A stretch of DNA of 64,000 bases, taken from NCBI GenBank assembly GCA_945948515.1, contig CAMFBH010000002.1, positions 1 through 64,000 of the forward strand. The letters are read 5' to 3'. The position numbers and the translations under genes were made by a program. Numbering within the stretch: position 1 is the stretch's first letter; each line of letters opens with the position of its first letter. Source of the stretch: an uncultured Clostridia bacterium. GTDB taxonomy: Bacteria > Bacillota > Clostridia > Oscillospirales > Acutalibacteraceae. The notes below the pieces were generated by a model. It saw nothing but the letters and a program-made list of their open reading frames with translations. It made no database searches and was not told the DNA's origin. Shown here one piece after another: positions 24,424 to 36,627 of the stretch.

Positions 24424-25590
24424 ATGCCGAGATTTGAAAACGATTACAGCGGCGCTGAAAAGAGGCGCCAAAACGATAAAAGAGACAGAACAGTTCCGAA
24501 CGATAATTTCGGGCAGATTGATTATAATTTCAACAATAGAAGACACGGCGAGGAATATGTTGATATGAACTCGCTTTACGAAAATTCCTCGAAAAATGAA
24601 TATGAGGATTTTTATACGGGCAGAGATGATTTTGACGAGCAGCCGAGGAAAAGCCGACGAAATCCGCCGCCGAAAAAGAATAAGAGTAAAAAAACAGGTC
24701 AAAAGATTATAGCCCTTCTTGCAGTTTTGCTTATTATTTTTTCTTCTCTCGCCTTTTCTGTTCTCGGAAAATTCAACTATACTCAAGGTGAGAAAAATCA
24801 ATATGTTGACTCTTCATCTTTAGTTAGCGGCGCAGGTGTTACAAATGTTCTTGTTCTCGGTGTTGACAGGCGCTCGGAAAACCAAACGGAATCCCGTTCG
24901 GACACGATGATGCTTGTTAGCATAGATAAAAAGCACAATGCAATTAAAATGACCTCATTTTTGCGTGACACATGGGTTTACATTCCCTGCAAGGATACCA
25001 ATCAGCGCTTAAATGCCGCATGCACCTACGGAGGCTATAACGGAGTTCGCGACACTATTGAATACAATTTCGGAATTAAGATAGACGGATATATTACAGC
25101 CGATTTTGAAATGTTTAAGGTTATTGTTGATTCTCTCGGCGGAGTTGAGGTTGAGGTTACGGAGGCAGAAGCCAATGAGGTTACCAATCACCAAAAGCGA
25201 TACGGCGGAGTTACTCTTGAAAGCGGAACTCATAATCTCACCGGAGAACAGGCTCTTGCATATTGCAGAATCAGAAAAATTGACACCGATTTTATGAGAA
25301 CTCAGCGACAGCGCACCGTTATGAGCGCAATGATTAACAAGGTTAAGCATTCAAATCCAATCAGCCTTTATTCCATGGCGAAAAATGCAGCGCCTTATAT
25401 TGGAACAAGCCTTTCAAAGGCTCAGCTTACAGGATTTGTTCTTTCTGCACTCACCTGTGCGGGAGATATCAGGCAGGAAAAGGTTCCGTTTGACGACACT
25501 TGGAGATATGCAAACATAAACGGAAACTCAGTTATTCAAATTGACCTTGATGAAAACAAAGAAAAATTGCAGGAATTTATTTACAATTAA
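24424..25590 (+). CDS. LytR-CpsA-Psr (LCP) family cell-wall glycopolymer ligase
   Basis: The 388-residue protein has a charged, disordered cytoplasmic N-terminus (about 95 residues), one transmembrane helix (about 97-118) and an extracellular LCP domain. Domain motifs include VLVLGVDRR near residue 140, SRSDTMMLVSID, SFLRDTWVYIP and the C-terminal ALAYCRIRKIDTDFMRTQRQ. LCP proteins transfer anionic glycopolymers from lipid carriers to peptidoglycan. GGGGAGG lies 12 bases before the ATG. It is monocistronic and ends at a strong terminator. Confidence 0.93.
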   Translation: MPRFENDYSGAEKRRQNDKRDRTVPNDNFGQIDYNFNNRRHGEEYVDMNSLYENSSKNEYEDFYTGRDDFDEQPRKSRRNPPPKKNKSKKTGQKIIALLAVLLIIFSSLAFSVLGKFNYTQGEKNQYVDSSSLVSGAGVTNVLVLGVDRRSENQTESRSDTMMLVSIDKKHNAIKMTSFLRDTWVYIPCKDTNQRLNAACTYGGYNGVRDTIEYNFGIKIDGYITADFEMFKVIVDSLGGVEVEVTEAEANEVTNHQKRYGGVTLESGTHNLTGEQALAYCRIRKIDTDFMRTQRQRTVMSAMINKVKHSNPISLYSMAKNAAPYIGTSLSKAQLTGFVLSALTCAGDIRQEKVPFDDTWRYANINGNSVIQIDLDENKEKLQEFIYN

Positions 25591-25602
25591 ATAAAAAAAT
25601 CA

Positions 25603-25633
25603 GAGCCGGCGGTTTTCACCGCCGGCTCCTTTT
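25603..25633. terminator. Bidirectional terminator between the LCP gene and the small peptide gene
   Basis: A GC-rich perfect 11-bp stem (25603-25613 with 25618-25628) is followed by CTTTTT on the plus strand and by TGATTTTTTTA on the minus strand. Confidence 0.9.
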
Positions 25634-25644
25634 TATGCCGTTAA

Positions 25645-25746
25645 TTAGTCGTCTTGGCCGGGAACTTTTTCGATAGATGTTGTGATAACATCTGAAGCTT
25701 TGAATTCCTCAACATCAACGACAGGCTTTGTGTAAAGTTCTTTCAT
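25645..25746 (-). CDS. 33-residue peptide of unknown function
   Basis: An ATG (25744-25746) with a perfect AGGAGGT site seven bases upstream opens a 33-codon frame ending in TAA. The acidic peptide starts MKELYTKPVVDVEEF and ends SIEKVPGQDD, with a DVITTS motif in the middle. The downstream bidirectional terminator also serves this strand, and a 7-bp hairpin lies just before the ribosome-binding site. It follows the 882-residue secreted protein gene by 77 bases on the same strand. There is no signal peptide, membrane segment or cysteine. The strong translation signals make a real gene likely; function is unknown. Confidence 0.7.
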   Translation of the reverse strand: MKELYTKPVVDVEEFKASDVITTSIEKVPGQDD

Positions 25747-25765
25747 TGAACTTACCTCCTATTCG

Positions 25766-25787
25766 TCTCCCGAGTTGAATCGGGAGA
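25766..25787 (-). other. Hairpin upstream of the small peptide ribosome-binding site
   Basis: A TCTCCCG/CGGGAGA stem with an 8-base loop and no T run lies 6 bases upstream of the peptide's AGGAGGT. It is more likely an mRNA end-stabilising or processing element than a terminator. Confidence 0.4.
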
Positions 25788-25823
25788 TGTGATATTAAGA
25801 TTTAAAATATTAATTATTGCTAA

Positions 25824-28472
25824 TTAATATGTTCCCTCCATAAGGTCGGAGTAGATTGTCTTAACTTCACCGGAAGCAGTCTTGTAAGTTACGAAAGCAA
25901 CTGCTGTTGCTTTTGCGTTCTTAGCTGTGATACCGTAGCTGAGAGCGAACTGAGCATCTTCTGACTTATCCTGAGTATAAGCAATCTTAACTGTTGCGCC
26001 GTTAACAACTGTTCCAACTTTCTCTACGGTAAGATCAGATTTTGTCATAGCTTTACCGTAAATGAAACCAGCCTCAACGAGTGTGCCTGATTCAGACATT
26101 GAACGAGTTGCAAGGAACTCAAACTTGTGAGAACCTGTTACAGCAGTAACAGATACTTTAGCAACATAAGGTGCCTTTTCAACAGTCTCTGTTACAGGAA
26201 CAACTGTTACATTGGAACCAACGAAGAAAGTATATGTTGCGCCGTAGAATACAACTTTACCGTCGATCTTCCAAGCTGTTGCGCCGGGAGCAGAAACAGT
26301 TACCTGTGCATCATAAGCAAGACCTGCTAATGCATTTTCTGCATTTGAAGCGCCGGAAACGATTGTGCATCCGTTTGCTGTTACTGTGAAGGTGTTGTCT
26401 GCATCTGCAGTGTACTGAGCCATAACGGTTGTAGCAGCTGAGATAGTAGAAAGATCTACACTCCAGCTTGCGAATGTGTAACCGATATAAGCAGGAGCTT
26501 CGGGAGCGCTTGCAGGATTAAATGCCTCGCCTACTGCTGTTTCAACAGTTGCAATAACATTTGCATACTTATCTACGAATACAACTGTGTAAGTTGTTGT
26601 TGTAACTTCCTCATATACAGGAGTATAAGTTACAGGCATGTAAGCAGTTGAAACATAAGTTGTATCTTTTGATACAAGCTTGCCGTTCATAGCCCAACCT
26701 ACAAACTTAACGCCGTCAACCGGTGTAGCTGTAAGGGTGTAATCTGAACCGTAAGGAACATTCTTAGCTTCTGTTGCCTTATCTGCAACTGTTTCGCCGT
26801 TGATTGTTACAGCACCCATATCTGAGTACTCAACTGTTACCGGAACACCAAGTGCCGGGATAGGATCGCAACCGTCAATGATTACGCCGCAAGCGTCGCA
26901 CTTAGTACCTGCTGTTGTACCAGCTTCCTTCATTGTAGCAGGAACTTCAGGAACAACTGAAGTCGGACCTGCATGGTTTGAAGGATTCTTATCGATTACC
27001 TTCTGTGCTTCAAGAACTACCTTACATACGGAGCAAACTTTACCGTCTGTAAGTCCTGTTGCAACACAAGTAGCGGGTGTGCCGGTTACTACTTGCTCTG
27101 TATGACCGGGAGCAGGAATAACTGAACCTGCTTTAACTAACTTTCCGCAATCAAGACAGTATGTGTCGCCGGTATAACCATCTTCTGTACATTTTTCAGG
27201 CTTAGCGTTTCTAACCTCTGTTTTAGCATGTTCACATATAACAACATCAAGAACTTCAGTGTATGAATATCCGCAAAGTCTACATGTGTAGGTCTTTATA
27301 CCAGTATCTGTGTATGTGGGTTCCTGAGTCACTTCAGAAGAGAAGGAGCAAGGCTCTGCAGAAGTTACAACCTGGCCGCAAACATTACATGTTACGGAGT
27401 GTTTCTCATCAGCTTTGTTATCGCCGATACGAGTATAAGTCTTTGCGCCGTCGTGAGCACAAGTCTTAACAGGGATATCCTCTGTGTAAGTACCGTGACA
27501 TACAGAGCATGTGAAGGTCTTTATACCAGTCTCTGTGTAAGTGGGTTCTTTTGTTACAACGCCTTCATCGAATGTGCAATTCTCTGTTACTGTGTAGCCT
27601 TCTGAATGGTCACAATCAGCAGCTGTACATGTTGCTGTGTGAGTTTTAGCAGCTGCACCGTTATATACGGGATCGCCAAGTACATGTGTGTGTGAAGCGG
27701 AAACATTCATGCTGGGGATAACGAAGTTCATCGGTCCGCAAACATTTCCTGTTCCGTCGTCAGAAATTGTATTACTGTTGATAACTGAATCTAAGTCATA
27801 AGCTACGCAAGACAATCCTGCACGCTCAGTTACAGCCTGTGCAAGAGTACAGTCTGAATTGATTTTGATTGCGAATGTGCCGGCAACAAGATCTCTATCG
27901 CCAACATACATACCGTAATTGTAAGCATTCAAATCCATTGAAGCTAAAACGATAACATTCTCATCAACATTGTAAGCACCTGAACCATCAAGGAAGCCGT
28001 CACCGTAGTCGAAACTGGAACCGTTTGCAAGAACTGCTGTGTTAGCATTCTCGGTCCAAGTTTTACCTGTTGAGTTTGTTACACCAACAGTTGCATAAGT
28101 TTCGTCGATTGCATAGTTAATCTGACAGAAGCTCATGAATGTTACATCTTTAAAGATTGAAACAAGCTGAATCATATCGCCGGCTTTAAGCTGAGTTGTG
28201 TCGGTAATTTCTTCAGCAGCGTTAAGAGCATCCCAAGAAGTGATTTTGTCTGCTGCTTTTGTGTAGGGATAAGCTCTGAGTTCAACGGTGGGAACCTTCA
28301 TAAGTGCCGCACCGGTATTCAAGTCATATGCCCAGCCGTATGTATTGGGATCGTATTCATCACCGTATGCAAGGCCGTCAATGACATCTGCAGAAGCAGT
28401 AATCGGCATAACGCTCATAAGCATTAAAGCAGCAAGAAGCACTGCGATTACTTTTTTGAAGCTTCTTTTCAT
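25824..28472 (-). CDS. Secreted multidomain protein with CxxC repeats and Listeria-Bacteroides-type repeat
   Basis: The 882-residue protein has a signal peptide (residues 1-29, cut after ASA). Residues about 30-255 form a beta-rich region with a cohesin-like pattern (KAGDMIQLVSIFKDVTF). From about 258 to 540 come repeated segments with six CxxC pairs (CSVC, CNVC, CRLC, CLDC, CSVC, CDAC), resembling small zinc-ribbon or disulfide knuckles. Two beta repeats follow: about 548-620, and an InlB/Listeria-Bacteroides-type repeat at about 625-690. The C-terminal 150 residues are again beta-rich. No LPXTG, LysM or SLH anchor is visible. The ATG has GGAGG upstream. No specific function can be assigned. 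Confidence 0.8.
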   Translation of the reverse strand: MKRSFKKVIAVLLAALMLMSVMPITASADVIDGLAYGDEYDPNTYGWAYDLNTGAALMKVPTVELRAYPYTKAADKITSWDALNAAEEITDTTQLKAGDMIQLVSIFKDVTFMSFCQINYAIDETYATVGVTNSTGKTWTENANTAVLANGSSFDYGDGFLDGSGAYNVDENVIVLASMDLNAYNYGMYVGDRDLVAGTFAIKINSDCTLAQAVTERAGLSCVAYDLDSVINSNTISDDGTGNVCGPMNFVIPSMNVSASHTHVLGDPVYNGAAAKTHTATCTAADCDHSEGYTVTENCTFDEGVVTKEPTYTETGIKTFTCSVCHGTYTEDIPVKTCAHDGAKTYTRIGDNKADEKHSVTCNVCGQVVTSAEPCSFSSEVTQEPTYTDTGIKTYTCRLCGYSYTEVLDVVICEHAKTEVRNAKPEKCTEDGYTGDTYCLDCGKLVKAGSVIPAPGHTEQVVTGTPATCVATGLTDGKVCSVCKVVLEAQKVIDKNPSNHAGPTSVVPEVPATMKEAGTTAGTKCDACGVIIDGCDPIPALGVPVTVEYSDMGAVTINGETVADKATEAKNVPYGSDYTLTATPVDGVKFVGWAMNGKLVSKDTTYVSTAYMPVTYTPVYEEVTTTTYTVVFVDKYANVIATVETAVGEAFNPASAPEAPAYIGYTFASWSVDLSTISAATTVMAQYTADADNTFTVTANGCTIVSGASNAENALAGLAYDAQVTVSAPGATAWKIDGKVVFYGATYTFFVGSNVTVVPVTETVEKAPYVAKVSVTAVTGSHKFEFLATRSMSESGTLVEAGFIYGKAMTKSDLTVEKVGTVVNGATVKIAYTQDKSEDAQFALSYGITAKNAKATAVAFVTYKTASGEVKTIYSDLMEGTY
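27583..27700 (-). repeat. DNA-level copy of a Cys-rich module (copy in the 882-residue protein)
   Basis: This stretch encodes the HTHVLGDPVYNG to GYTVTENCTFDEGVV segment. It is closely similar in DNA to 30914-31030 in the 2102-residue protein gene, which indicates module exchange or duplication between neighbouring genes. Confidence 0.75.
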
Positions 28473-29057: not shown

Positions 29058-30185
29058 TTATTGAAGAACTAAATCCGGATAAGTTACTGTTCCTACAGCA
29101 AAGAAAACATTAACAAGTCTCGCATCGGTAGCATTGATCTTTCCGTCTCCGTTAAGGTCATAAGCCGGATAAGATGTAAAGCTGCCCGAAGAATAAGCAA
29201 TGTTAAAGGCTCGCGTATCAGAAGCATTAATTGCTTCCTTAGCAGTATTATAGTTACAAGCACAAAGCGGAATATCCGCATTTTCTATTGCCGCACCGTT
29301 AACAACAAGAGTTACTGTTCTTGTTACGGCAAACTCTCCTGTAACGGTAACGGTATAGGTACCGTCTGCAAGAGCAGGAATAGTGTAGGTATTCGAAGTG
29401 AATTTAGTTCCGTCGTTTACAGCATCAGACTGAACCTCTGTAACAGTTCTTCCCTCTGCATCTGCAACTGTAAGGGTGCAGGTGTAAGGAACCGGCTTTG
29501 AAGCAGTTGACCCGTCAACCGTTGTCATAACATAAATATTTCCGGAAACATCGTAGCCGGCAACGGGAAGAACGGGTGAATAATCAATTTCCATTGGGAA
29601 GGTTGCATATTCATAGCCCGGGTAGGAGGTGTTTAAAGCATAGCACTCCTTTGAATCGCCGTGCTCTGTTTCAAGGAAGGTATAGTCGGGGCTTTCGTCC
29701 GCTGTAAAAATTGACGCGGCATCACAGGCTGAAACGGGAGTTACGGGAAGAGTGAAAAGCACTGCATCCTCCTCAACTCCTGAGCAAACGCTGTTTGTTG
29801 AAACCGCTGCAAAAACTATTTTAGTGTTTGAAACATCCGACATATCGGTGTTTATTGTTGTGTATGAATCAGACATTATACTTGTGAAGGTGCCTACGGC
29901 GGCCTTGGATACATCCACAGCTATAACTAGCTGAAGCCTTGCAACGGCAGTTACACCTGATAGCTTAAATGAGCAAGAGTACTCTGTTCCCGCCTCAAGG
30001 GCATTGCCGTCTGCAACCTCGCCGAGCGAGTTTTGATATTCGCAGTAAATTTTCGGAGTTTCCGTTCCGAGGGTCTGATTTCCGCCGTTTTCATCCTTTG
30101 CCGCAAGGGCGGTTAACGGTGCCGAAAGGCAAGCCGCTAAGCAAACTGATAAAAAAACAGCCAATAACTTTTTGGAAAAACTCAT
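29058..30185 (-). CDS. Secreted cohesin-like / beta-sandwich / dockerin protein
   Basis: The 375-residue protein has a signal peptide (1-29, TALA-A). Residues about 40-190 form a beta-sandwich that resembles a cohesin or cohesin-like domain (ALEAGTEYSCSFKLSGV, LFTLPVTPVSACDA). Residues about 208-312 form an Ig/carboxypeptidase-regulatory-like module (SGNIYVMTTVDG). The C-terminal about 60 residues are a type I-like dockerin; the second calcium loop DLNGDGKINATDARLV is complete while the first is degenerate. Dockerins bind cohesins to dock proteins on surface scaffolds. The last two modules are closely repeated in the neighbouring 2102-residue protein. GGAGG precedes the ATG. Confidence 0.8.
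   Translation of the reverse strand: MSFSKKLLAVFLSVCLAACLSAPLTALAAKDENGGNQTLGTETPKIYCEYQNSLGEVADGNALEAGTEYSCSFKLSGVTAVARLQLVIAVDVSKAAVGTFTSIMSDSYTTINTDMSDVSNTKIVFAAVSTNSVCSGVEEDAVLFTLPVTPVSACDAASIFTADESPDYTFLETEHGDSKECYALNTSYPGYEYATFPMEIDYSPVLPVAGYDVSGNIYVMTTVDGSTASKPVPYTCTLTVADAEGRTVTEVQSDAVNDGTKFTSNTYTIPALADGTYTVTVTGEFAVTRTVTLVVNGAAIENADIPLCACNYNTAKEAINASDTRAFNIAYSSGSFTSYPAYDLNGDGKINATDARLVNVFFAVGTVTYPDLVLQ
29078..29550 (-). repeat. Beta-sandwich plus dockerin cassette, copy 1
   Basis: This segment encodes the last about 165 residues of the 375-residue protein. It is similar in DNA and protein to 30340-30810, so the cassette has been duplicated or exchanged between adjacent genes. Confidence 0.85.
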
Positions 30186-30210
30186 TTTTTTCCTCCGATT
30201 GCTGTTTGAA

Positions 30211-30302
30211 GCGTGCCGTGCGCTAACACGGCACGCAAAACATTAGTTTTGTTAAATTCCCGTTAAATCGGGATTACACAGCGCAGATTTCTCCGCGCTG
30301 TG
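30211..30302 (-). other. Three consecutive hairpins between the two dockerin genes
   Basis: A 10-bp stem GCGTGCCGTG/CACGGCACGC (30211-30236), a TCCCG/CGGGA hairpin (30258-30273) and an 8-bp stem CACAGCGC/GCGCTGTG (30277-30302) fill the gap between the stop at 30319 and the next start at 30185. None has a classical T run, so they may act as processing or mRNA-stabilising elements rather than terminators. Confidence 0.5.
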
Positions 30303-30318
30303 CAAAATTAAATATTAC

Positions 30319-33300
30319 TTACTGAATTGTAAGTGCCGGATATGTTACTGTACCTACTGAGTAGAATACATTAACAAGTCTTGCATCTGTTGCGTTGATC
30401 TTACCGTCTGCGTTAAGATCATACTCAGGATATGCAGCAAAGCTACCTGATGAGTATGCAACATTGAATGCTCTAAGGTCAGCTGCGTTAATTGCTACCT
30501 TAGCTGTGTTGTAGTTACAAGCACAGATCGGAATATTAGCAGTTGTAATATCAGCACCGTTAACAACAAGAGTTACTGTTCTCGAAACTGCATAAGCGCC
30601 GGTTACAGTTACTGTGTATGTTCCGTTCGGAAGGTTCGGGATTGAGAATGTGTTCGAGGTGAACTTAGTTCCCGAGTTAACAGCTGTTGAAGTAACCTCT
30701 GTAACAGGTGTTCCCTCTGCGTTTGCAACAGTAAGAGTACAAGCATAAGGAACGGGCTTTGAAGCAGTTGCGCCGGCAGCGGTTGTCATAACATAGATGT
30801 TACCCGAAACAGTGTAGCCTGCGGGAGCAACAGAATATGTTCCGCCGCAAACAGTACATGTGTAAAGGGTTGAACCGTCGTCCTGAACAACACCTTGATC
30901 GAAGGTACAAGCTTCTGTTACTGTGTAGCCTTCTGAAAGGTCACAATCAGCTGCAGTACATGTTGCTGTATGTGTTTTAGCTTCTTCACCGTCATATACC
31001 GGAGTTCCGAGTGTATGAGTATGAGATGCTTCTTCAACATAAGGAACAAGAGCGTTTTCAGCAAGCATGAGATCCTTACGGATTGAGAATGTTGTTGTGT
31101 AGTTCTGAGACACTTCAGTTCCGTCTTCATTGGTTAAAGTGCCTGCTTTGTAATCTACAGCCTTATTATAAGCTGCAACATAGTTATTCCAAGATTCAGT
31201 TGTGTAAAGCTGAGTTTCGGAAGCATCTACTGCTGCTTTAATAGTGTTGTAGTGAGTGATTTCCTCATCAAGCTTTGTGAAATCTACGCCACGGAAGCTG
31301 AGGTAATCCCAATATGTGTTGAACACACGAATTGCTTCATAAATCTCAAATGAAGAAGCTGTTGTTGAAATCTCTCTTGAGTTTGAAGTCCATACGAAAT
31401 CACTTGCATTAAGCTTAGCTTCGTCAGTCTTGTTTTCGTTATCAGCTTCAAGAGCCTTTTCAAAGTCAGCCCACTTGAGGTTTGTGTAAACAGGTGTTGC
31501 ACCTTCAAGGAAGATGGGCGCACCCTTTTCGTCGTAAATAACTTTGCCGTACTTATCTCTCTCACATGATTCTACACTGTAGAATGTGTAGATATCATCA
31601 ACTGTGATAAGAGCTTCTGCATCTCTTGCAGCCTTAGCCATCTTCTCGTATGTAATAACATCATAGTTAACATTATTCATACCTGCACGCTTCTCTGTAA
31701 CCATGTTATAAAGAATTTCTGCAGCTGAAGATGAAACCTTAGTTTTTGCAATTTCAAGAGCATAATTGAGCTTATCGTTTGCTTTGAGGTAGATACCGCG
31801 GTTTTCTGCGCCGGGTGTTACACCAAGGTAGGTTTGGGGTATCTTATATCTCCAAGCAAGCTCTGTTGTTCCGGAAATTGTTGTGTCGGAACTACAAGCA
31901 CCGCCTTCTGCATTTTTGTAATCATACTGATCAATACTATAAAGAGGAAGTACATTGCCCTGAGCATCTTTAGTTGTTTTCTGAGTTTCTGTTGCTGCAT
32001 AGTACGGATTCTCGAAGAAGTCTCCCGTACCTGAGCCCATATCCTTCCACACATACTCATATGCAGGAGCGTTAATGAAGCGATAATCGCCTGTTTCTGA
32101 ATCAAGCTCCATTGTTGCCTTCTCAGCAGCGGAAAGCATGTCGTAACCTGCTTCATTCAGCTTAACATTGGTGTAAACAGGAACTGTTCCTGCTTCATCA
32201 ACATAATAGTAGCCGTCAACTAAATAGAAATCTTTAACCATATCATCGGGAAGAGATGTTGCCTTTTGGTAAACAGTTTCACCGAGTCTTGCTGTTGTTT
32301 CCTTAGTTGTTACCTGAGTTGACTTAATGGAAGCGATTCTGTTTGTTGTGTCAAGAGCAGTTGTGTTGTTGATGGGAGTACCCAAAGCCTTAACAGCTGC
32401 TTTTGCACTATTAAGAACATAGTTATATGTTTCTGATGTTTCTGTTGAGCTGTTGTAATCAGCAAAGTCTTCGGGCTTATATGTTGACATAAACTCAAGT
32501 GCCTTGCTGTAGTCTTCATTGAGCTTAACAGATTCGGTATCGTCTGCAACAGTGATTGTCCACGGAACGGTCTTCTTACCGTCGTCGTTACGGAAGAAGC
32601 AAACATTCGTATTGGTTGACTGTGCTTCGATATCTGTTTTGCCGTCCCACTTAAGGAACTGAACATATTTTGTTGAGTTATTTACTATCTGCTTCTGCAT
32701 TGAGAAGTAGATTCCGTCGATACCTGTTGACCAAGTCGGGTCAGAATTTGCATAGCTTGCATTGAAGGTTGTTGACATATCACCGTCGAGGAGTACGTCT
32801 GAACCTTGGAGCTGAACCTGCTTGCCGTTATATGTACCGTCTGCATTCTGATAATTAGCAAGAGCCTCACGAAGGATACCTCCTGCAGACGCCTCAGCAA
32901 GAGTAAGAGCTACATGGTATCTTGTTGCTGTGATTGTAGGATCGTTTGCTTTCAAGCTGTCAATATCAGACATTAAATAAGCACCGCGTACCCATGTACC
33001 GGCGGGTGTGCCGTCTTCATTCTGAGTCGGTTTACCGTTTTCATCAAGAACTGACTTGAAGTAGTCATAATAGTTCATGTTGATGATATCACCGGTATCC
33101 ATATCAACGGTGGGAATACCGTATGCCTGATTATCTGTGTAAGCGAAAACGCCGTCGATAGCCCAGTCTTTTGAAGCTTCGTTTACGATACGAACATTGA
33201 TTTTATCAAGCTGAGTAATCATTGACTTCTTGATAACAACATTCTTAGGATACTGAATGTACATGTGCTTATATTTTACACCGGAAAGCGCTCTCTTAAT

Positions 33301-36300
33301 ATAGTTAGAAGCCTTTGTATAGTTGTCTTCTGTGTCCCTAGCAAGCTCATTCTTGAAGGTTCCGTCTTCGTTATAAACTGCATCATACCAGTCATAGTCT
33401 GTTGTTACGAACTGATAAGCAGAAGCAGTAAGTCCTGTATAATTGTTTCCGTCCTTATCCTTAATGAGTGTTCCGTTCTGGTCAACATAAGAATAGGAAA
33501 CAAGGAACTCTGCAAGATACTCGCCGTTTTGATCAAGTTGTGAAGAAGAAACTGAATAGCTAACGGGAACTTCACCGATAGCATCGGGAGCAACAAGTGC
33601 TGCCTGTGAAGGATTGGTTGCAACAACCGAACCTGTATTTACATGAGTGATTGTATCAACTCTTACATATACACGGCTTGCGGGAATTACATCGCCTGCA
33701 GCATTGATATATGCACGGTTAATACCGAGTGAATTGTTGTGAACGCATACATAGTTGGAAATTGTGCTTCCGGCTGTGTATGAGTTCTTAGTAGCTTCTT
33801 TCATATAGATATCTGTACCGCTGAGCTTGAAAGCTGAAATCTGAGGTACAAATGAAGGTATGAAGTTGTTTACAGCTGTAACAATATACATTGCACCCTC
33901 CCAGCATGTATCCTGGCAGGTTCTGTAACAGCTTCCTCCGAAGCCTTCATAAACGCGGCAGATAAATCTTCCGATAACACCGATATCAGCGGAAACTCCT
34001 GAAGCGCCTGCGATATTAGCAATCTGAAGGAATGCATCGAACGGGCTTGACTTATCTGCTGTTCTTGCGAGGATGAGATCTCCGCATTTATCATTCGAAT
34101 CGCGAGCGCCGATTACGAAGTTGAGCATCTTCTGAAGAACATCGTAAACAATATCAACAATGCTATCACTCTGGAAGTAGTGAGTCTTAAGAGCATCAAT
34201 GATTGTTGTAAGAGCAGTTGAAACACCCTGGTTAGGACCGATATCAAGCATACCAAGAATTAACTTCTCATAGATAAGGTCTTGAGTGTCAAGATTGCCC
34301 TGACCGTAACCAAGCATTTCACCGAGATCGGGAAGAAGCTTGTTAACAATTAAGCTAAGGTTCTGCCAAAGGCTATTTGTTTGCTTAATTGCGCAAGTTG
34401 TAAGAGCGCCTGAGCCTGTGCCGCACTTGAAATCAGTGAAGCCAAGGAGGTTACCTATACCGCAATCAACTGCGTAGTAGCATACAACAGAATTGAGAAG
34501 ATCAAAGATATCATCTGATGCTGATGCAGTTACAACACCGTTGGTTGAATCATAAAGCTTATAAATGTTCCATACAGAACCATCTTTATTTGTAAGAGGA
34601 ACAATGGACTCAAGGATGTAGCACAAAGCATCGCGTGCCATCGGAAGAATTACGCCTTCAATGCTTGCATTGTAAGCTGTAATATTACCTTCTGAATCCT
34701 TTGTTGCTTCAGTAAGAAGAGCTGTGTAATCATACTCGGGAACGATGTATGAGAGATACTCTTCAAGACAAACATAAGCAACATCCTCTGCATCTGTACA
34801 TGCAAGCCACTTGCTGTCATGTACCTGCTTAACATCGGCTGAAGCCTTAATTACTGCGATCATAAACGGAACCATTGCTGATTCAACATTTGCCTCTGTA
34901 ATCTTTGCATCTGCGCCGTTATCTGCATAGAACTGAGCAAGAATATTTGCATCTGTTTCATCGCCTACATACTGAATAAGTGTGCAAGCATTTGAGATGA
35001 GTGTGCTTACGATTGTTGCTGTGTCTAATGTGTTTCCGGTTTTTGCGAGTGTTCCGTCCTGAAGGGTCGGGAAGAGCTCATAAAGAAGAGCTACAAGGAA
35101 ATCGTTAAAGCCCTGGATAACACCGGTGTATGCGCTGAAATCAAAGGTGAATACATCTCTGAACAACAGCTTTTCGCCAACATTTGCTTTAAGTAAATAT
35201 GTTTCTGTTATACAAAGGTTAAGAATACCGTTTTCACAACCAAGCTCTGCAGCAAGAGGACTGTAAAGAAGCTTCTGGAAGAGAGCTTCGGCATCTATAT
35301 CCTGGAAAGTGTACTTTTCGCCGTCTGCTTTTTTATTAGCAGTAGTTCTGTCGTGCCTGTTGTAGCAAATCTTAAGTGCATTGATAACATCTGCAACAGA
35401 TGAAGCTGATGTTACATTAACAAGGCTCGGGCAGATATTGTTAAGCTCGTCAACAACTCTTTCAAGGTTAGAAATGTTGTTTCCGTTTGTATCCTTAACA
35501 ATGTCACCGTTCCAATCATATGAAATAGGATCGGAAAGCCAAGTTTCAACAGACTGCTTGCCGTTAACTTTCATATAATCGTTATAAATGTTATCAATAT
35601 TCAAATGAGTGTACTGAACCTGGATTCTTCCGAAGAGTGAAGAAAGAACAGATTCCCATACCTGCTGGAATGCAACGAAAGCTCTCTCTGCAAGGTTGTT
35701 CTGCTGACCGATTGCGTAATCGCTCTTAAGAGCATGACCTGCATAAGGATAATATGAGCTGTCTGAACTCATATCAGTTGTTGTAACTGTATCTTTATTC
35801 CAAGAACCGTCTTCGTTCTTCTGTGCCCATTTGTATGTATTAACAGAAGCGTCGATACCTTCAATCTTCTGAAGAAGATCTGTTGAGAGAAGGCTCATTG
35901 CCATGTCATCAAAAGTGAGTCCCATTAAGTAGTTGTACTTAGCAAGACCCTCTTCTGTTGTTTGGTCACAGAAAGCACCAACCATAACCGGCTTAAGAAT
36001 ATTATAAACCATGTTGCTTTGGTAGCCGGCTTCAAGTCCGAGTTTTCCGCCGAGCAGACCGTATAGATCAAGGGCGCTTGCAAGACCGAGGTCGAGCTGT
36101 CCGAGAAGGAACTGCTTTAAGATGTTGCTACCTGCAAAATCATTAGACATAATGTAGATATTCTGAGCAATTGCCATAATGATTTCTTTTGCAGAATTTG
36201 TGCTGCGGTTTGAAAGATTTGAAATAGGTGAAAGATCTATATTCTTAACATCACCGCCGAGAAGACCCTGATATTTTTTAACAAGTGCCCAAACATCATC

Positions 36301-36627
36301 AACAAGAATCAACACATTATCAACGCTGTCAATCTTGCCTTCAAGGTCTATCTGAAGCGCCTGCAATGCTTGAAGCGGTTTCATATGAACCGATACTGTC
36401 AGATTAACGCCTGCAAGCACCTCATCAAGCCAGTCGAGAACCGCGCCGGCTGTCTGCTCATCTGTAAGCTCTGCCCATGCCATGAAATTCCAAGCAATGT
36501 TGTTATCATGGTAATCAGGGTCTTTAACTGCCGCAAATGCCTGGAAAGCACCTGTCATGCAGCTGAGAGCCATAAGAAGAGCTAAGAACAAGCTAAGCAA
36601 ACGCTTTGAAAATTTCTTAACTTTCAC
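30319..36627 (-). CDS. Giant secreted protein (2102 residues) with C-terminal dockerin
   Basis: A signal peptide (1-32, AFA) is followed by about 950 residues of predicted helical, Leu/Ile/Asn-rich sequence with no recognised family. A beta-rich middle follows (about 960-1450), then helical segments resembling FIVAR-type surface repeats; the clearest is around 1800-1860 (YTTESWNNYVAAYNKAVDY). Residues about 1865-1930 are the Cys-rich module shared with the 882-residue protein. Residues about 1935-2035 are the Ig-like module and about 2040-2100 the dockerin with DLNADGKINATDARLV, shared with the 375-residue protein. GGAGG precedes the ATG. It is divergent from the equally large 37295-44830 gene. 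It is probably surface-docked; no enzymatic motif was found. Confidence 0.82.
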   Translation of the reverse strand: MKVKKFSKRLLSLFLALLMALSCMTGAFQAFAAVKDPDYHDNNIAWNFMAWAELTDEQTAGAVLDWLDEVLAGVNLTVSVHMKPLQALQALQIDLEGKIDSVDNVLILVDDVWALVKKYQGLLGGDVKNIDLSPISNLSNRSTNSAKEIIMAIAQNIYIMSNDFAGSNILKQFLLGQLDLGLASALDLYGLLGGKLGLEAGYQSNMVYNILKPVMVGAFCDQTTEEGLAKYNYLMGLTFDDMAMSLLSTDLLQKIEGIDASVNTYKWAQKNEDGSWNKDTVTTTDMSSDSSYYPYAGHALKSDYAIGQQNNLAERAFVAFQQVWESVLSSLFGRIQVQYTHLNIDNIYNDYMKVNGKQSVETWLSDPISYDWNGDIVKDTNGNNISNLERVVDELNNICPSLVNVTSASSVADVINALKICYNRHDRTTANKKADGEKYTFQDIDAEALFQKLLYSPLAAELGCENGILNLCITETYLLKANVGEKLLFRDVFTFDFSAYTGVIQGFNDFLVALLYELFPTLQDGTLAKTGNTLDTATIVSTLISNACTLIQYVGDETDANILAQFYADNGADAKITEANVESAMVPFMIAVIKASADVKQVHDSKWLACTDAEDVAYVCLEEYLSYIVPEYDYTALLTEATKDSEGNITAYNASIEGVILPMARDALCYILESIVPLTNKDGSVWNIYKLYDSTNGVVTASASDDIFDLLNSVVCYYAVDCGIGNLLGFTDFKCGTGSGALTTCAIKQTNSLWQNLSLIVNKLLPDLGEMLGYGQGNLDTQDLIYEKLILGMLDIGPNQGVSTALTTIIDALKTHYFQSDSIVDIVYDVLQKMLNFVIGARDSNDKCGDLILARTADKSSPFDAFLQIANIAGASGVSADIGVIGRFICRVYEGFGGSCYRTCQDTCWEGAMYIVTAVNNFIPSFVPQISAFKLSGTDIYMKEATKNSYTAGSTISNYVCVHNNSLGINRAYINAAGDVIPASRVYVRVDTITHVNTGSVVATNPSQAALVAPDAIGEVPVSYSVSSSQLDQNGEYLAEFLVSYSYVDQNGTLIKDKDGNNYTGLTASAYQFVTTDYDWYDAVYNEDGTFKNELARDTEDNYTKASNYIKRALSGVKYKHMYIQYPKNVVIKKSMITQLDKINVRIVNEASKDWAIDGVFAYTDNQAYGIPTVDMDTGDIINMNYYDYFKSVLDENGKPTQNEDGTPAGTWVRGAYLMSDIDSLKANDPTITATRYHVALTLAEASAGGILREALANYQNADGTYNGKQVQLQGSDVLLDGDMSTTFNASYANSDPTWSTGIDGIYFSMQKQIVNNSTKYVQFLKWDGKTDIEAQSTNTNVCFFRNDDGKKTVPWTITVADDTESVKLNEDYSKALEFMSTYKPEDFADYNSSTETSETYNYVLNSAKAAVKALGTPINNTTALDTTNRIASIKSTQVTTKETTARLGETVYQKATSLPDDMVKDFYLVDGYYYVDEAGTVPVYTNVKLNEAGYDMLSAAEKATMELDSETGDYRFINAPAYEYVWKDMGSGTGDFFENPYYAATETQKTTKDAQGNVLPLYSIDQYDYKNAEGGACSSDTTISGTTELAWRYKIPQTYLGVTPGAENRGIYLKANDKLNYALEIAKTKVSSSAAEILYNMVTEKRAGMNNVNYDVITYEKMAKAARDAEALITVDDIYTFYSVESCERDKYGKVIYDEKGAPIFLEGATPVYTNLKWADFEKALEADNENKTDEAKLNASDFVWTSNSREISTTASSFEIYEAIRVFNTYWDYLSFRGVDFTKLDEEITHYNTIKAAVDASETQLYTTESWNNYVAAYNKAVDYKAGTLTNEDGTEVSQNYTTTFSIRKDLMLAENALVPYVEEASHTHTLGTPVYDGEEAKTHTATCTAADCDLSEGYTVTEACTFDQGVVQDDGSTLYTCTVCGGTYSVAPAGYTVSGNIYVMTTAAGATASKPVPYACTLTVANAEGTPVTEVTSTAVNSGTKFTSNTFSIPNLPNGTYTVTVTGAYAVSRTVTLVVNGADITTANIPICACNYNTAKVAINAADLRAFNVAYSSGSFAAYPEYDLNADGKINATDARLVNVFYSVGTVTYPALTIQ
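30340..30810 (-). repeat. Beta-sandwich plus dockerin cassette, copy 2
   Basis: The matching C-terminal cassette in the 2102-residue protein gene. Nearly every residue pattern of copy 1 is kept, including NYNTA, INA.D.RAFN and the DLN.DGKINATDARLVNVF loop. Confidence 0.85.
30914..31030 (-). repeat. DNA-level copy of the Cys-rich module (copy in the 2102-residue protein)
   Basis: Counterpart of 27583-27700. The encoded segment starts HTHTLGTPVYDG and includes CTAADC. Confidence 0.75.

Follow-up and report, generated by a model that had tools for sequence, protein, structure and literature searches.

A 33-codon gene behind a secreted-protein gene in an uncultured Clostridia bacterium probably encodes an LPP-like RiPP precursor

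The window analysed here is a 64,000-nt stretch of contig CAMFBH010000002.1 from an uncultured Clostridia bacterium. We found that a 33-codon gene on its minus strand (25645-25746) belongs to a family of short peptides with an invariant serine, and we consider it probable that its product is a RiPP precursor resembling the linear polyphosphorylated peptides (LPPs) of Bacilli. This precursor would be phosphorylated at Ser24, cut and exported by the enzymes of a shared hub, and would work together with the secreted protein encoded just before it. The evidence lies in the anatomy of the peptide, the co-occurrence of its family with an LPP-type gene set, the enzymes present in the window's own genome and the pairing of the peptide genes with genes of secreted proteins.

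Results

A short gene with its own expression signals

The following features of the window are referred to throughout.

25645..25746, minus strand: precursor peptide gene, 33 codons, MKELYTKPVVDVEEFKASDVITTSIEKVPGQDD (ORF; family profile match E 1.2e-14; pN << pS)
25681..25746, minus strand: conserved leader, residues 1-22, with a putative limit and a conjectural cleavage after T22 (A4 alignment of 29 peptides; column counts of 100)
25723..25734, minus strand: YTKP, a YxxP motif and presumed RRE-bound site (position 5 Tyr or Phe in 98/100 distinct peptides, Pro8 in 96/100)
25675..25692, minus strand: DVITTS motif, residues 19-24 (alignment and column counts)
25675..25677, minus strand: Ser24, presumed phosphorylation site (Ser in 94/94 distinct peptides aligned at the column, 6 gaps)
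25645..25674, minus strand: variable acidic tail IEKVPGQDD plus stop (family tails net negative in 90/94, Cys in 1/94)
25754..25760, minus strand: Shine-Dalgarno sequence AGGAGGT (sequence reading; SD-like sequence before 26/29 family members)
25766..25787, minus strand: intergenic hairpin between the stop of the secreted-protein gene and the SD (z -3.5)
25602..25629, minus strand: terminator, also terminator-like on the plus strand for a LytR-CpsA-Psr gene (folding z -5.6)
25824..28472, minus strand: 882-aa secreted-type protein, presumed partner (77 nt upstream of the peptide gene)
25827..26201, minus strand: C-terminal domain (CTD) of the 882-aa protein, related to the CTDs of other peptide-linked secreted proteins (iterative HMM, profile search)

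A previous sequence-only reading had proposed a gene of this size, giving no strand, with a strong ribosome-binding site, its own upstream hairpin, a strong terminator and a location beside a secreted-protein cluster. All these elements are present. The ORF listing of the window places the frame on the minus strand, with AGGAGGT 7 nt before the ATG and the 882-aa secreted-type gene directly upstream on the same strand. The 87-nt region that holds the hairpin has an MFE of -18.6 kcal/mol, and 3′ of the peptide gene a two-way terminator consists of 12 pairs followed by GATTTTTTTA. The hairpin recurs in position, with unrelated and GC-rich sequence, between the secreted-protein gene and the peptide start in two relatives with long gaps (L033:8097-8180 and L036:2276-2367), and L034 and L035, which have gaps of 24 nt, lack it. 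Such an element could set the ratio of secreted protein to peptide.

Annotation databases were silent about this gene: the peptide gave zero family matches in Pfam and NCBIfam up to E 10, nothing in the PDB except one chance match, and Rfam had zero matches at 25400-26000. A tie to the convergent LytR-CpsA-Psr gene was considered and dropped, since in the syntenic loci L033-L035 the peptide does not have it as a neighbour. The cluster also encodes, farther upstream, two secreted proteins of 375 and 2102 aa (29058-36627) whose C-terminal ends are alike, that of the 375-aa protein being dockerin-like (PF00404, just at cut-off); L033-L035 hold relatives of both.

The gene belongs to a widespread family under purifying selection

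The 33-codon ORF is a real coding gene, because there are second and third copies in the same genome (G000) and homologues in 64/300 genomes of the GTDB family, and because it is under purifying selection. The second copy lies behind a 2134-aa secreted-type protein and the third (L274) 22 nt behind another CTD protein. A single-sequence query matched 24/300 genomes of the GTDB family, one match being false: the G118 sequence is not a family member, as the motif is missing, and G118 is also without kinase, RRE and peptidase. The A4 profile, built from an alignment of 29 peptides, detected the family in those 64/300 genomes (E up to 0.01), with E-values reaching 6e-16 at best, and in 47/391 genomes drawn from the class (E up to 0.001). 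The family is a large, unannotated, gut-bacterial one, and the DVIT(T/A)S core that the previous reading had mentioned for short clostridial peptides does define a motif family across Clostridia.

The leader, taken as the first 24 codons, is under purifying selection. Among four syntenic copies (the window, L033, L034 and L035, which have secreted-gene neighbours in common), pS ranged from 0.40 to 0.78 and pN from 0.09 to 0.25, and the variable sites at the three codon positions numbered 12, 4 and 16. When seven sequences were compared, pS exceeded pN in 21/21 pairs. A lack of amino-acid conservation, with random synonymous and non-synonymous change, had been named as the outcome that would count against the gene; this outcome was not observed, and the proposal of a gene stands.

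Family peptides share an N-terminal part of about 24 residues (MKxxYxxP....E.F...DVITTS) followed by a variable acidic tail. Among 100 distinct peptides (E up to 1e-4) taken from the loci analysed here, the columns other than YxxP and Ser24 showed Phe15 in 86/100 and Asp or Asn at position 19 in 96/100. Tails have a median of 25 residues across the family and 9 in the window peptide. The leader is conserved, one Ser is invariant and the tail is free, which together make the plan of a precursor, and the near-absence of Cys argues against thioether RiPPs. Where the sequence-only reading had left a choice between signalling, regulatory and precursor peptide, this plan and the LPP-type machinery described below decide for the precursor. 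In one genome (G018, L057:8039-8077, contig C24) an in-frame stop cuts the family peptide off after 12 codons; the peptidase went undetected there and the kinase is of the distant type only, so that peptide and machinery parts may decay together.

Enzymes of the LPP type accompany the family

The genes that recur around family peptides encode an HPrK-like kinase, an MsbA-like ABC exporter, PqqD, an S24/S26-type peptidase and NTP_transf_5, which correspond to the core gene set of LPPs as presented by Popov et al. (2026, PMC13381572). This set adjoins family peptides in 6/29 peptide-bearing loci (L044, L045, L047, L049, L050 and L053) and also in L097 and L116. Viewed from the kinase, 15/75 loci on GTDB contigs had a peptide encoded no more than 5 kb away on the strand of the kinase (5/80 loci, in which no kinase ORF was called, were left out). 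The aligned enzymes keep their key residues: Ser, His and Asp of the peptidases in GxSM, LHR and GD, the P-loop and NDDKP of the kinases, and in the RREs an Asn (14/14) and an Asp (13/14) that match LppB N33 and D70 by motif spacing, LppB itself standing outside the alignment.

Searching the 300 genomes of the GTDB family at E up to 1e-20 gave the kinase in 63/64 peptide genomes vs 71/236 others (p 1e-25) and, counted by genus, in 37/37 peptide genera vs 34/98 others (p 1e-13), p-values that overstate independence as the genomes are related. The close kinase type occurs in 60/64 peptide genomes; G018, G131 and G262 have the distant type only, and G257, which is 86% complete, is the sole peptide genome without a detected kinase. 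A peptide went undetected in 71/134 kinase-bearing genomes. With about half of the kinase genomes peptide-less, the kinase has other clients or peptides were missed. A search with kinase, RRE and peptidase profiles in 39 genomes (24 with a single-query peptide match and 15 without) found kinase and RRE in the same 30/39 and missing in the same 9/39, and the peptidase in 28/39. At L098 and L100 (G266:C12 and G193:C27), HPrK, PqqD and peptidase come immediately after a secreted CTD protein, and no peptide could be detected; either the peptide is very divergent there or none is needed.

No LPP machinery lies near the window peptide, and the enzymes of its genome are encoded on four other contigs. 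The kinase (C35:6289-6987, E 4.2e-81) has the P-loop GTGKSTH and NDDKP; the RREs are PqqD proteins on C13 and C29, both over the Pfam cut-off, one of which matched the solved lasso RRE TbiB1 (E 1.3e-5); the SipW-like peptidase (C7:61678-62091, E 2.5e-40) contains GPSM, MHR and GDN and corresponds by motif to S29/H68/D93 of LppS; and the adjoining 571-aa ABC protein scored 734 bits to a model of LPP-associated exporters. The genome therefore holds the LPP features of an HPrK-like kinase, a discrete YxxP-type RRE, a SipW-like peptidase and an MsbA-like exporter. The PqqD gene on C29 stands alone beside lepA (L081:4519-4785); NTP_transf_5 is absent next to it and lies beside PqqD in the relatives L086 and L087, and a loss from the window's genome is therefore possible.

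Peptide genes follow genes of secreted proteins

First-copy peptides were codirectional with the preceding gene in 28/28 usable cases. The starting set was 32 peptide ORFs from the window and 29 loci, with L058 contributing none; the 28 remain after leaving out two second copies behind another peptide, L052 (contig start) and L057 (truncated copy). By script, the preceding gene was signal-peptide-like in 22/28, vs 34/155 control neighbours (p 1.4e-8). Among the six neighbours scored as non-secreted, three are cut by contig ends (L036, L039 and L060), one looks secreted by eye (L040) and two do not (L047 and L051). In the class-level loci, 28/29 peptides have a preceding gene that runs in the same direction, at a distance of -10 to 355 nt.

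Some genomes carry many copies. G512, G316, G375, G652 and G315 each have at least 15-20 short-peptide copies, along with one or two genes for the kinase. Four kinase loci were inspected in these many-copy genomes, and none carried a peptide. The numbers for G512 are at least 20 peptides and 2 kinase genes, with 18/18 usable peptides (2/20 had no upstream gene in the stretch) starting -8 to 24 nt after a preceding secreted-type gene; where the N-terminus of the preceding gene was complete, 15/15 were signal-peptide-like by eye. Many peptides for one or two kinases, together with peptide-free kinase loci, thus draw the picture of a hub with many spokes.

The upstream proteins often have a C-terminal domain in common as well. 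Seeded from five proteins, a CTD HMM reached 21/26 upstream proteins after three rounds, in what is a small set. A CTD profile of nine sequences matched in 14/39 genomes, all of them among the 24 with a single-query peptide match and none among the 15 others. A peptide followed in 17/33 CTD matches, a count that takes in the nine profile-building sequences and treats one match ending at a contig edge as not followed. Since only about half of the matches have a peptide behind them, the CTD is linked, and not bound, to the peptide.

Discussion

A model of how the peptide may be matured is as follows. The leader, residues 1-22, would dock through Y5xxP8 onto a PqqD-type RRE, and the HPrK-like kinase would then phosphorylate Ser24. 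A SipW-like signal peptidase would remove the leader close to TTS, perhaps after T22, where V or I at -3 and T, C or A at -1 would suit a signal-peptidase-like enzyme, and an MsbA-like ABC exporter would send out the short acidic core. The enzymes found in the window's genome would serve as the shared hub, encoded at other loci. The exported core may act with the co-encoded secreted protein as a companion, tag or anchor, which is the step of the scheme that we hold least firmly.

How close is this peptide to known LPPs? In the LPP system of Paenibacillus alginolyticus (lppA/K/B/S/D/N), as described by Popov et al. (2026, PMC13381572), the YxxP leader, a motif shared with lasso leaders, is bound by the RRE, Ser3 of the core is phosphorylated by the kinase and the leader is cut by a SipW-like peptidase; the biological role of LPPs is unknown according to their discoverers. 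Like the window family, LPPs have a short precursor with a conserved YxxP N-terminus, a Ser about 18-19 residues after the Tyr and a variable C-terminus, and the families of HPrK-like kinase, discrete RRE, SipW-like peptidase, MsbA-like exporter and NTP transferase agree. There are also differences. The published LPPs are from Bacilli whereas the present family is from Clostridia, and the terms "Clostridi" and "Rumino" have zero occurrences in the main text of that paper. The window peptide fits the consensus YxxPxVLxHQxIxFETxxS only in YxxP and in the Ser, which follows the Tyr by 19 and not 18 residues; it has neither HQ nor FET, E-F-DVITTS standing in place of HQxIxFET, and its tail has 9 residues compared with a 45-residue LPP core. 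LPP precursors and enzymes share one cluster, whereas most precursors of the window family are scattered behind genes of secreted proteins, and their number reaches at least 20 in a genome that has one or two kinases. A single-cluster layout is seen in other members such as L044, L049 and L053. Because the window peptide has neither the precursor consensus nor the single-cluster layout, we do not claim membership of the LPP family. Kinase and RRE also matched the NCBIfam HprK-related kinase/PqqD families TIGR04352, TIGR04249 and TIGR04353 weakly, far below the curated cut-offs, and are not members of them. In the open literature consulted, bioRxiv excepted, neither these peptides nor their pairing with secreted proteins turned up as the subject of a paper, a search for "DVITTS" gave none, and dispersed precursors each behind a different secreted protein were not found in print.

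Other readings of the gene have to be weighed against the LPP-like precursor. Tight pairing with secreted-protein genes, even far from any machinery, is what would be expected of an unmodified small protein that serves the preceding protein as chaperone, cap or anchor, while kinase, RRE and peptidase share the same lineages and serve other peptides. YxxP and the invariant Ser, the LPP gene set adjoining family peptides in several genera and the kinase in all but one of the peptide genomes speak against it, and we judge it unlikely. An unmodified signalling or regulatory peptide, secreted or cytoplasmic, seems improbable: the peptides are short and in some genomes have many paralogues with variable tails, but conservation lies in the N-terminus, which has a motif known to bind RREs, and the gene families that recur nearby encode secreted proteins and LPP-type enzymes, no receptor being evident among the neighbours compared. 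Shortness might also suggest a chance ORF or a decayed remnant, an idea that purifying selection, the SD-like sequences before 26/29 relatives and family E-values to 6e-16 leave with practically no probability; we regard it as refuted by the conservation tests.

The YxxP leader and an RRE related to the lasso RRE TbiB1 would likewise fit a paeninodin-like lasso precursor orphaned from its cyclase. As described in PMC13381572, paeninodin-like systems resemble the window family in having a [Y/W]xxP leader, an RRE, an HPrK-like kinase and an NTP transferase, but their leaders carry WxxP. They also need a B2 protease, a macrolactam cyclase and a core long enough to thread. Neither B2 protease nor macrolactam cyclase recurred among the compared neighbours of family peptides. 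Moreover, the window tail of about 9-11 residues is too short for a 7-9-residue macrolactam ring plus a threaded tail, and cleavage after T22 would leave it without an acidic residue at 7-9, so that we give this reading very little weight.

Returning to the LPP-like precursor, one may imagine a genome-wide system in Clostridia in which many secreted proteins each have their own operon-encoded phosphopeptide, matured by a single shared set of kinase, RRE and peptidase and then attached to, or displayed with, its partner outside the cell, as a tag or anchor supplied in trans for the secretome. We put this forward as a tentative extension that is more doubtful than the assignment of the gene itself. 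In the genomes studied here, LPP-like precursors are tied one by one to large secreted proteins and are not limited to one biosynthetic cluster, some genomes having a dozen or more such peptide-secreted protein copies. This one-by-one tie points to a job at the cell envelope and not to a free, antibiotic-like product. The family also brings to light a large class of small genes that have gone unannotated in gut Clostridia.
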